This document shows positions 7,399-10,564 of a DNA stretch of 36,086 bases, in pieces (within the stretch, counting starts at the first letter, position 1; each line of letters starts with the position of its first letter). Origin of the DNA: Saprospiraceae bacterium. GTDB lineage: Bacteria > Bacteroidota > Bacteroidia > Chitinophagales > Saprospiraceae. Under the pieces are notes generated by a model. It saw only the letters and a program-made list of their open reading frames with translations. It was not told the DNA's origin and did not search any database. The stretch spans positions 11,978-48,063 of the forward strand of contig JAHDFN010000004.1 of NCBI GenBank assembly GCA_020628145.1. Reading direction: 5' to 3'. The translations under genes were made by a program, and so were the position numbers.

Positions 7399-7414
7399 AA
7401 CTAATGAATTAGTT
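7399..7414. promoter_or_regulatory. Operator palindrome 1 of the BlaI-type repressor
   Basis: AACTAAT-GA-ATTAGTT is a perfect 7-bp inverted repeat with a 2-base spacer. It overlaps the first two bases of the TTG (-33) element at 7413-7415. Binding by the downstream repressor is inferred from family habit (BlaI/MecI autoregulate through palindromes). Confidence 0.7.
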
Positions 7415-7443
7415 GTGTAATTAATTGATTAGTTATAGATTTG
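7413..7443 (+). promoter_or_regulatory. Promoter of the BlaI/M56 operon
   Basis: TTG (7413-7415), then 20 bases, then TAGATTTG (7436-7443), matching the Bacteroidota -33/-7 consensus. Transcription would begin near 7449, about 15 bases before the ATG at 7464. Both operators lie over the -33 box and the spacer. Confidence 0.72.
7419..7434. promoter_or_regulatory. Operator palindrome 2 of the BlaI-type repressor
   Basis: AATTAAT-TG-ATTAGTT has the same form as palindrome 1, with one half-site base changed (AATTAAT for AACTAAT). Its centre is 20 bp from the first, about two helical turns. It fills the spacer between -33 and -7. Confidence 0.68.
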
Positions 7444-7463
7444 TTTCAGACAATATAAAGTTT

Positions 7464-7826
7464 ATGAAAAAATTGGCACAGAGAGAAGAACAAATCATGC
7501 AGGTACTTTGGGAGCAAGGGCCATCCTTTGTTAAGGAGATAGTGGAGGCACTACCCAATCCTAAACCGCATTATAATTCCGTTTCCACAATGGTTCGGAT
7601 TTTGCAGTCCAAAGGTTTTATCAATCATAAGGCATTCGGTAAGACACATCAGTATTTCGCCGTCATTTCCAAAGAAACCTATCAGGCCCAAGCTGTGGAA
7701 GAACTGGTAGGGAATTATTTCAAAGGTTCCATTTCGGAGATGGTTTCTTATTTCGCAAAAAAGGAAAAAATAAGTGAGGCGGAATTAACCGATATTATTG
7801 AAATGATCAAAAACCAGAAGAAATGA
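7464..7826 (+). CDS. BlaI/MecI/CopY-family transcriptional repressor
   Basis: A 120-residue winged-helix repressor, the usual size for the family. It opens MKKLAQREEQIMQVLWEQGP, the classic BlaI N-terminus, and continues with the recognition region NPKPHYNSVSTMVRILQSKGF and the wing (HKAFGKTHQYFAVI). The C-terminal helices (YFKGSISEMVSYFAKKEKIS) are the dimerisation part. A longer reading from a TTG at 7425 would begin inside operator 2 and upstream of the likely transcription start, so the ATG at 7464 is chosen. The stop overlaps the M56 gene start by 4 bp (ATGA), the standard repressor/protease pairing. In the family, the protease inactivates the repressor when a signal arrives. Here it should repress its own operon through the two palindromes. 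Confidence 0.93.
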   Translation: MKKLAQREEQIMQVLWEQGPSFVKEIVEALPNPKPHYNSVSTMVRILQSKGFINHKAFGKTHQYFAVISKETYQAQAVEELVGNYFKGSISEMVSYFAKKEKISEAELTDIIEMIKNQKK

Positions 7827-10564
7827 TCCCGTATATTATCCACGTATCCGTTTTGTTGGCCGTATTTTACACTTTTTATTGGCTGCTGTTGAGGAAGGAA
7901 ACTTTTTATAAATTGAACCGCTTTGTATTGATTGGTTCATTGGTTTTATCGTTTTCCCTTCCCCTCATCCATATTCCGGCATCGATGTCTTTACATTCGA
8001 TAATAATGGAAGAACCTGTTGCGGATGCCATTATCCCTGAAATGGAATTGGAAGCCGTTAGGGAAAATAAAAGCCATGAAAATATCCGGAAGGAAGAATT
8101 AATCCATAAGGAAGAAATAATGCCTTTGGAAGAAAGTAAGGAAAGTATTTCTCTTTTTTCTACGATCCAATCTTGGGGCTGGTCTAAGATTCTTTGGGCG
8201 ATTTATGGAATAGGTGTGGCTATTTTTTCGATTACATTCCTGATACAGTTCTTTGTCATTCTTTTCAGTCGGATAAATCTGAAATTCATACAGGATGGTA
8301 AATACAGGATTTATGAAATGAGTAAGGAAACGCCCCCTTTTTCCTTTTTGAATTGGATTTTCATTAATCCGACATTATATGACTTGGAGGCTTTCAATCA
8401 GATTTTGGAACACGAGAAAATACATGTGAGCCAAGCCCATTCGATTGATAAGTTATTGGCTGAATTCATTATTATCTTTAATTGGTTCAATCCTTTTGCC
8501 TGGTTGTACAGAAAAACGATTAATAATAATATCGAATTCCTGACGGATCAGGAAATGTTGAAAAAAGGAACGGAAAAACAATCCTACCAAATGAATTTAC
8601 TGAGAATTTCCGTACCTCAACATGCTCTTACCTTAACCACCAATTATAACGAATCTTTTCTCAAGGAACGAATAGGGATGATGAATTCGAAAAAATCATC
8701 CGCACGTTCCAGTTGGAAATATTTAATGGTGCTTCCCTTGATTCTTTTTACCGTGATGAGTCTGAATGCGATTCAAAAAGAAACAGGTGGAAACCTGATT
8801 CCGGAAATCGAAGATTCAGAAACTTTGGAAAAAGTCATTGAAGGAAAAACATTGTCTGAAGATGAAAAAGAAAAACCTATTTTGAATCAATCTCCTTCGG
8901 ATAGAAAGACTAATGAAGTTATTGCCGAAGAAAAAAACGAAAAAGAGGAGCAAAAAAATGAAGTACTGAATGAAGCAGGGAATCCTTTAGGGAGTTTTTC
9001 CCAATCAGAATCGAATGTAGGGGAAGTCGAATCCGAAAAATTATTCGGAAAGGATTTTCCAATGCCGGAATCCGAGAGAAGGAAATTGGAAGAATTGGCC
9101 CAGTTGGGTGATGTGTTCAAGGAAAGTTTCCAAGGGTTACCTTTTGACGGGGATGAAGTAGTAGAGGAAGTTATGAAATCAATGAATGGGAATAATATAA
9201 CCATGACGACTACCACAACGACTTCATCAAAACCGAAGAATTCTTGTGATGACAAGAAAAAAAGTTCATGTGATACAAGCAAAAAGAAATCATCTTGTAA
9301 TACCGACAAGAAAAAATCCTCCTGTAATCCTTCAGGTGTGAAATTAAATCCGGGAGAATGGTTTGCGAAAATCGAAGAAAACGAAGTTTGTTTTCATATG
9401 AATCGAAAAACAAGGAAAAAACAGATATGGGAGGTGGCTGAATGTTTTTCTAGAAATTCATTGGGTTCCTTGCCTCGTTATTCCTCGGGGAGTTTTATTG
9501 CCAATCGAGATCCCGGTAAAATTGTTTTTACAGGAAAATTCTCCGGTAATACCGGCGAAGGAGATTTCACATTCAAGGAAAGTAATGAATTTATTTCTTT
9601 TTTGAAAAATGAACAAATCGGTTCGATTACTTTGGATGAATTGTTTCTCATGTATTTGAATAATACTTCCAAGCAATATATCCGAGGATTGAAATCCAGA
9701 GGGTATGATGTGGATGTTGAAGATGTCTTGGAATTAGGCGTGCATGAAGTGAGCCTGGATTTTATTGACCGATTAAAAAAAGAAGGGTATAAGGATTTGT
9801 CCTTGGATAAAATCATTGAATTTTCAATTCACGGCATCCAACCTGATTTTATTTCCGAATTGAAGAAATTAGGATATAAAAATGTTTCAGGAAGGGATGT
9901 TGTTAATTTGAAAAATCACGGAGTGTCCGTCGAATATTTGAGAAACCTCAAAGATTTGGGCTATGGTGCGGATCGCATGAGGATAAATAAGGTCATTGAG
10001 TTTGCCATTCATGGTGTCAATTCAGATTATTTGAAAAAAATAAAAAAGATCGGTTATGGTTCTGATAATTTATCTCCGAATAAAGTCGTTGAATTCGCCG
10101 TACACGGAGTAGGCTCCGAATACTTGAAAAAATTAAAAGCCCTAGGCTATGGTTCCGAGATGTTGTCTCCGAGCAAGGTCGTTGAATTTGCTGTACACGG
10201 TGTCAATTCGGAATATATAACCAATCTGACCAACTTGGGATATGGGGCGGATAATTTACCTCCTAATAAATTGATCGAATTTGCCGTACACGGCATTATG
10301 TCGAAATATGTAAAATCGCTAAAAGACGAAGGATATAATAGTTTATCTCCTTCGGATATTATAAAGGGAGCCATTCATGGATTGGATACCCGATATATCG
10401 GTAAGTTGAAATCAATGGGCGTAAGGAACTTGTCTTATGATAAATTAATCGAAGCACAAATACATGGCGTTACGTCCCGTTTCATACAGGAGGCCAAAAG
10501 CAACGGAGCGAAATCAGATGATTTATCGGATTTTATTCAGATGAAAATTCATGGGATTTATTAA
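7823..10564 (+). CDS. M56 (BlaR1-like) membrane metallopeptidase with C-terminal HG(V/I) repeat domain
   Basis: A 913-residue inner-membrane zinc peptidase, far longer than the membrane protease part alone. Hydrophobic segments lie near residues 5-22, 34-52, 124-148 and 300-316. The active site is HEKIH at 197-201, with the third ligand probably Glu238 in NNIEFLTDQEML. After the last membrane segment comes a charged Glu/Lys-rich linker (about 320-450), then a Ser/Cys/Lys stretch with four SSC or NSC units (Cys475, 483, 492, 501). Next is a beta-rich segment (about 511-600, with RDPGKIVFTGKFSG), and finally nine repeats of 29 or 31 residues (639-907) plus a partial KIHGIY. BlaR1's penicillin-binding sensor domain is absent. 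Coupling to the BlaI repressor is shown by the 4-bp overlap. The C-terminal region probably senses or binds a ligand outside the membrane; that is inference. Confidence 0.88.
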   Translation: MIPYIIHVSVLLAVFYTFYWLLLRKETFYKLNRFVLIGSLVLSFSLPLIHIPASMSLHSIIMEEPVADAIIPEMELEAVRENKSHENIRKEELIHKEEIMPLEESKESISLFSTIQSWGWSKILWAIYGIGVAIFSITFLIQFFVILFSRINLKFIQDGKYRIYEMSKETPPFSFLNWIFINPTLYDLEAFNQILEHEKIHVSQAHSIDKLLAEFIIIFNWFNPFAWLYRKTINNNIEFLTDQEMLKKGTEKQSYQMNLLRISVPQHALTLTTNYNESFLKERIGMMNSKKSSARSSWKYLMVLPLILFTVMSLNAIQKETGGNLIPEIEDSETLEKVIEGKTLSEDEKEKPILNQSPSDRKTNEVIAEEKNEKEEQKNEVLNEAGNPLGSFSQSESNVGEVESEKLFGKDFPMPESERRKLEELAQLGDVFKESFQGLPFDGDEVVEEVMKSMNGNNITMTTTTTTSSKPKNSCDDKKKSSCDTSKKKSSCNTDKKKSSCNPSGVKLNPGEWFAKIEENEVCFHMNRKTRKKQIWEVAECFSRNSLGSLPRYSSGSFIANRDPGKIVFTGKFSGNTGEGDFTFKESNEFISFLKNEQIGSITLDELFLMYLNNTSKQYIRGLKSRGYDVDVEDVLELGVHEVSLDFIDRLKKEGYKDLSLDKIIEFSIHGIQPDFISELKKLGYKNVSGRDVVNLKNHGVSVEYLRNLKDLGYGADRMRINKVIEFAIHGVNSDYLKKIKKIGYGSDNLSPNKVVEFAVHGVGSEYLKKLKALGYGSEMLSPSKVVEFAVHGVNSEYITNLTNLGYGADNLPPNKLIEFAVHGIMSKYVKSLKDEGYNSLSPSDIIKGAIHGLDTRYIGKLKSMGVRNLSYDKLIEAQIHGVTSRFIQEAKSNGAKSDDLSDFIQMKIHGIY
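9737..10561 (+). repeat. Nine protein-coding tandem repeats of 29 or 31 codons
   Basis: Units of 29, 29, 31, 31, 31, 31, 29, 29 and 29 residues, then a six-residue partial. The consensus reads roughly (A/S)(I/V)HG(V/I)xSxYxxxLKxLGYxxLSxxKVIEF. His and Gly are nearly invariant, except that unit 1 has HE. Units 3-6 are the most alike, suggesting the most recent duplication. Confidence 0.9.

Follow-up and report, generated by a model that had tools for sequence, protein, structure and literature searches.

In the window, by which we mean the whole stretch of 36,086 nucleotides from a Saprospiraceae bacterium analysed here, a 45-bp unit upstream of the blaI gene carries two palindromic operators interlocked with a promoter, and we consider it highly likely that this element serves a blaI-M56 operon as an autoregulated promoter, with dyads bound by the repressor and repression relieved by the peptidase. 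The layout itself, its conservation, its place at blaI only among the genomes of the genus at 0–1 mismatches, and the co-variation of half-sites and recognition helix were all obtained by computation. Because the array is conserved and its half-sites track the recognition helix, it is very probable that the dyads are read by the cognate BlaI, which would thereby repress the blaI-M56 operon that encodes it. The initial annotation had described the locus as a complete autoregulatory switch, a description that these data support by inference.

Operator 1 (7399–7414) reads AACTAAT-GA-ATTAGTT, with the half-sites at 7399–7405 and 7408–7414 around the central GA (7406–7407), and all seven of its opposed positions are complementary. 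Operator 2 (7419–7434) reads AATTAAT-TG-ATTAGTT (left half 7419–7425, centre 7426–7427, right half 7428–7434) and pairs at six positions out of seven. Direct reading of the sequence confirmed the two 7-2-7 palindromes set 20 bp apart before blaI. They had been presented as the same palindrome with one half-site base changed: the C to T change in the half-site is indeed there, but the two central bases differ too, the two 16-mers, whose starts are 20 bp apart, being identical at 13 of 16 bases. The changed left half AATTAAT is common to the four relatives compared (L009, L010, L011 and L029).

Single dyads of this type are not commoner than chance: allowing up to 2 mismatches, the window contains 4 where 2.49 are expected, and with up to 1 mismatch allowed the genome to which it belongs contains 10, fewer than the 19 matches of the reversed pattern. 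Since single sites were not significant, the claim rests on the pair of dyads. The window contains one palindrome pair; any such pair appeared in 7 out of 500 dinucleotide shuffles of the whole window, and an equally alike pair in none of the 500. This test replaces an earlier per-sequence shuffle count (“3 of 5000”), which was discarded since its criterion required a conserved G:C pair, absent from dyad 2 of the window.

As for the promoter, the box TAGATTTG lies on the plus strand at 7436–7443, and the TTG upstream of it (7413–7415, plus strand), formed by the last two bases of operator 1 and the next G, is what we take to be the −33 element of a Bacteroidota sigma-A promoter. The right half of operator 1 runs into this TTG, the spacer between TTG and TAGATTTG is 20 bases long (7416–7435), and the second dyad sits in it because the spacing of the dyads and that of the promoter are equal in length; the overlay proposed at first, with one dyad reaching the −33 box and the other in the spacer, therefore holds at the level of positions. 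In Flavobacterium psychrophilum the corresponding −7 box, of consensus TAnnTTTG, is placed at −12 to −5 according to the available portion of PMC9723704; if the box of the window spans the same positions, transcription would start at 7448 on the plus strand. The ATG of blaI (7464) comes 20 bases after the end of the box (7443), as annotated, and in the nearest relatives an ATG is found at the equivalent place, 19–21 bases past the −7 box. The rejection of a longer repressor start at 7425 was also upheld, as the TTG at 7425 falls inside dyad 2, upstream of the −7 box, and it is further supported by the equal dyad and promoter spacings and by their interlock.

The blaI gene (7464–7826, plus strand, ATG start) encodes a 120-residue repressor of the BlaI/MecI family, matching Pfam PF03965 (Penicillinase_R) with 109.1 bits against a cut-off of 22.6; its best matches among named genomes are Saprospiraceae assemblies. 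In the structure model (mean pLDDT 79.7) the helix 37–50 is the predicted recognition helix, and the best PDB matches were MecI (1okr) and BlaI (1sd4), with operator complexes among the matches; the protein is predicted to share the winged-helix fold of MecI and BlaI. Its Tyr96-Phe97 aligns with the Asn-Phe bond cleaved in known BlaI, N101-F102 in the part of PMC3305447 available. The adjoining gene (7823–10564, plus strand), which shares its first 4 bases with the end of blaI, encodes an M56 (BlaR1-type) membrane peptidase with a C-terminal repeat domain, and scored 41.6 bits with Pfam Peptidase_M56 (cut-off 31). M56 was the only Pfam match in the protein, with none in the C-terminal domain, and a beta-lactam sensor (penicillin-binding) domain was not found; the NCBIfam model blaR1_generic gave 21.5 bits, below its cut-off of 400. 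The C-terminal domain contains direct repeats of 93 nt (31 residues) at 9986–10264.

To evaluate the conservation of the array, a 45-bp ungapped model was seeded from the window, with a threshold score reached by 1% of shuffles, and applied upstream of 135 distinct BlaI homologues with upstream DNA, from the genus, named genomes and the family (first set). The dyad-dyad-promoter unit was found in 104 of them. The frozen model then retrieved it upstream of 62 of 108 further blaI genes from a class-wide draw (second set), planned as other families only and including three loci from the window's own family (L253, L263 and L273). Duplicate proteins were merged, L044 was excluded from the counts (start codon not found), and both sets contain related sequences; at 70% identity their effective sizes are about 60 and 35 sequences. 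The lack of such conservation upstream of orthologous blaI genes had been named beforehand as evidence against the initial annotation, and the conservation observed was strong. Between the window and its four relatives the 45-bp unit agrees at 398 of 450 compared positions, while the preceding 45 bp agree at 152 of 450. A scan independent of both motif and spacing searched 133 upstream regions for 16-base palindromes that were nearly perfect and contained one G:C pair or more. It returned 36 pairs at spacing 20, where a shuffle set gave 0.06 on average, and 5 at spacing 21, where it gave 0.04. A third dyad of full quality, 20 bp further upstream, was present in 25/95 arrays of the first set and in 4/53 of the second. 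Four plasmid loci of named Bacteroidales species were inspected as well: by eye, dyads of AACTA type, 21–23 bp apart, lie before blaI in L326 and L327, and the two-dyad array was not seen in L325 and L328.

The array was not found upstream of 31/135 and 46/108 blaI genes in the two sets, 18 and 16 of which follow a same-strand frame ending within 150 bp; some of these may be second genes of operons transcribed from further up. An HExxH (M56-like) frame lies downstream of blaI in 151 of the 158 loci with enough DNA, with or without the array.

The half-site tables took 95 of the 104 arrays of the first set (score at least 15) and 53 of the 62 of the second. Among these 148 arrays the exact TTG-N20-TA occurs in 102. 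In the 45-bp model of the first set, constraint is strongest in AGTTG, the stretch in which the right half of dyad 1 passes into the −33 box, in TA..TTTG, and at the outer bases of dyad 2. A clear TAnnTTYG was recognised in 93 arrays, and in 23 of these (e.g. L021, L107, L117 and L189) the gap from the box to the ATG is at most 5 bases, being exactly 4 in 18. With a gap of 4 bases and a box at −12 to −5, as in the accessible text of PMC9723704, the start codon would begin at the first transcribed base, and these mRNAs are predicted to be leaderless; the same source reports 5.5% of leaderless mRNAs for F. psychrophilum.

The half-site letters vary among loci: [A/T]ACTAA accounts for 187 of 344 scored half-sites, followed by forms ending in CTAT, CTTA, CGAA, CGTA and CTGA. 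We scanned BlaI for the stretch that best explains the distance between half-sites after removal of the distance over the rest of the protein, using 146 of the 148 tabled arrays (93 from the first set, 53 from the second). The best-tracking stretch was formed by residues 37–47 in the first set and 36–46 in the second, and the window codons for residues 36–47, at 7569–7604 on the plus strand, encode this part of the protein. A set of six residues on the recognition helix, picked after the first set was seen, beat 1000 out of 1000 random column sets in each set. By product-corrected mutual information the helix columns were near the top, mixed with others, and in the second set other columns came first; it is the distance-corrected scan that carries the co-variation claim. 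The single-residue rules, fixed before the second set was collected, were borne out only partly: R45 went with A at the outer base in 45/46 cases and N38 with A at position 5 in 43/50, and the one case of G at position 4, expected only with S42 and S/T38, fitted, but the other half of the residue 45 rule, K45 with outer T, failed (2/7). Post hoc refinements related A41 to outer T (3/5 vs 0/48) and N38 together with T42 to A (43/44). As a whole, the letters of the half-sites co-vary with the recognition helix of the adjacent BlaI, which suggests that repressor and operator belong together.

This result bears directly on whether the dyads could be bound by some other regulator, or by one of the BlaI paralogues that the genome encodes, rather than by the adjacent BlaI, an explanation that we regard as improbable. 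Cross-binding is conceivable, as the genome (an assembly of 4.3 Mb in 340 contigs, about 92% complete) has three BlaI genes. The paralogues, however, have different dyads before their own genes, a two-dyad AACTTA array for L007 (G000:C295) and a TGACGTA-type dyad for L006 (G000:C57), and across loci the half-site letters follow the adjacent protein. An even less probable alternative is that the true operator is a single central palindrome, with dimers in an everted register on TTAGTT-N4-AACTAA between the dyads. Since half-sites recur every 10 bp or so along the array, the everted palindrome exists as well, and the motif-free scan gave 60 pairs at spacing 10, a large share of them presumably everted palindromes between dyads; nevertheless, arrays with one dyad (e.g. 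L176 and L177) retain the inverted form in the spacer, and the Enterococcus site AACTACAGATGTAGTT and the CopY consensus RNYKACANNTGTMRNY are of inverted form as well. Finally, we give hardly any credit to an RNA hairpin or terminator of the upstream kinase gene, since the 46-base stretch does fold as RNA better than its own shuffles (z −4.34) but is unremarkable in its 143-base context (z −0.41), its stem is A+T-rich with no U run behind it and precedes the predicted start of the transcript, and the conservation tracks the promoter boxes and the DNA-reading helix.

In the preferred reading, an autorepressed blaI-M56 operon, BlaI dimers would occupy both dyads from one side of the double helix, with some two turns between them; operator 1 covers the −33 TTG and operator 2 fills the spacer as far as the −7 box. 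With both operators over the −33 element and the spacer, the bound repressor would shut out RNA polymerase. The M56 peptidase would then sense a signal, probably via its C-terminal domain, leading to removal of BlaI and to a rise of the operon; we infer repression and its relief by the peptidase by analogy with BlaR1-BlaI, as described in the available text of PMC3305447.

The initial annotation had also suggested a motif search for a regulon; none emerged in the window's own genome, and relatives have arrays at DUF1573 and TPR genes and at a gene for a stand-alone relative of the M56 C-terminal domain. In the own genome the single-site search reported above was rejected as evidence of a regulon, and 7 of the 8 DUF1573 loci, inspected with a tolerance of up to 5 mismatches, showed no array; given an assembly completeness of about 92%, a target may have been missed. 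At 0–1 mismatches the pair occurred only at blaI within the nine genomes of the genus, in four of them; at 3 mismatches the hits are background, each of the nine genomes having fewer of them than of the reversed pattern. Across the 120 family genomes, the 55 forward matches were merged by hand into 44 distinct arrays; the reversed pattern gave 5 forward matches. Of the arrays, 31 stand immediately upstream of blaI, 3 upstream of a TPR gene preceding blaI, 1 upstream of a DUF1573 gene preceding blaI and 5 upstream of further DUF1573 genes; the remaining 4 were found elsewhere.

The paired operators before DUF1573 genes are at L288, L299, L300, L301, L310 and L311 (identified by Pfam in the first four and by eye in L310 and L311), L299 being a DUF1573-blaI-M56 cluster; L295, L302 and L315 are TPR-blaI gene pairs in which the TPR gene has the array in front of it (TPR by eye in L315). 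One of the arrays found elsewhere, at L316:1503-3206 (G022:C30), precedes a 526-aa stand-alone relative of the C-terminal domain of the window M56 protein (E 3.1e-52); this frame adjoins a sigma-70-family gene, and no BlaI frame was seen in 3.7 kb. The other three may be due to chance.

Taken jointly, these observations allow a broader reading, to which we assign about equal chances of being right or wrong: Bacteroidota BlaI proteins would follow a readable DNA code, with arrays of dyads at a spacing of about 20 bp, merged with the −33 and −7 elements and conserved across the sampled families; the half-site letters would be set by residues of the recognition helix (among 38, 41, 42, 43, 45 and 46), and paralogous blaI-M56 switches within one cell would thereby be insulated from each other; in some genomes BlaI would drive distant genes, including a free copy of the M56 C-terminal domain, possibly a feedback decoy. 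BlaI genes are common in the family, with matches in 102 of 120 genomes and up to 17 per genome, but the literature searched gave no recognised description of a Bacteroidota BlaI operator, most subscription papers being outside its coverage. A defined operator, a fixed place in the promoter and a relation between helix and letters would make BlaI regulons searchable and the pairing of repressors with targets testable, and the arrays at DUF1573 and TPR genes are first hints of the targets of apparently non-beta-lactam switches. It is the spread of one interlocked layout, together with the helix/half-site relation, that lifts this locus above routine.

Compared with known systems, the locus resembles BlaI/MecI with BlaR1/MecR1 of Staphylococcus aureus and Bacillus licheniformis in repressor family, fold, adjoining M56 gene and probable autorepression, and in having several operators (three in B. 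licheniformis, between repressed genes, in the available part of PMC3305447). It differs from the BlaR1 system in that no beta-lactam sensor domain was detected in the peptidase by Pfam or NCBIfam, and from BlaI/MecI in that the operators are built into a Bacteroidota −33/−7 promoter at a 20-bp phase; moreover, the core operator TACA-N2-TGTA is absent at the window dyads, whose core is TAAT-N2-ATTA. On an Enterococcus plasmid, a blaI accompanied by an annotated BlaR1 beta-lactam sensor is preceded by a single dyad, AACTACA-GA-TGTAGTT, which begins 31 bases upstream of the gene; the window AACTAAT-GA-ATTAGTT has the same frame with two inner half-site bases changed (AT for CA). The copper repressors CopY/CopR belong to the same family, and, as far as the accessible text of PMC7253601 goes, their 16-base RNYKACANNTGTMRNY matches the window at half-site positions 1–5 and the two cop operators are proposed to block the −35 element and polymerase. 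By contrast, positions 6–7 are AT for CA in the window, cop operators are mostly 24–39 bases apart with a mode of 26 (same source), the window BlaI scored 42.6 bits with the CopY_TcrY model, below the cut-off of 121.95, and none of its 120 residues is a cysteine, hence it has no CXC metal site. With respect to Bacteroidota sigma-A promoters (TAnnTTTG), TAGATTTG with its upstream TTG is of the same type, but here the −33 element and the spacer are composed of operator sequence. The kind of circuit, BlaI/MecI autoregulation, is therefore known, and what is new is the inner AT for CA, the 20-bp phase and the interlock with the promoter.
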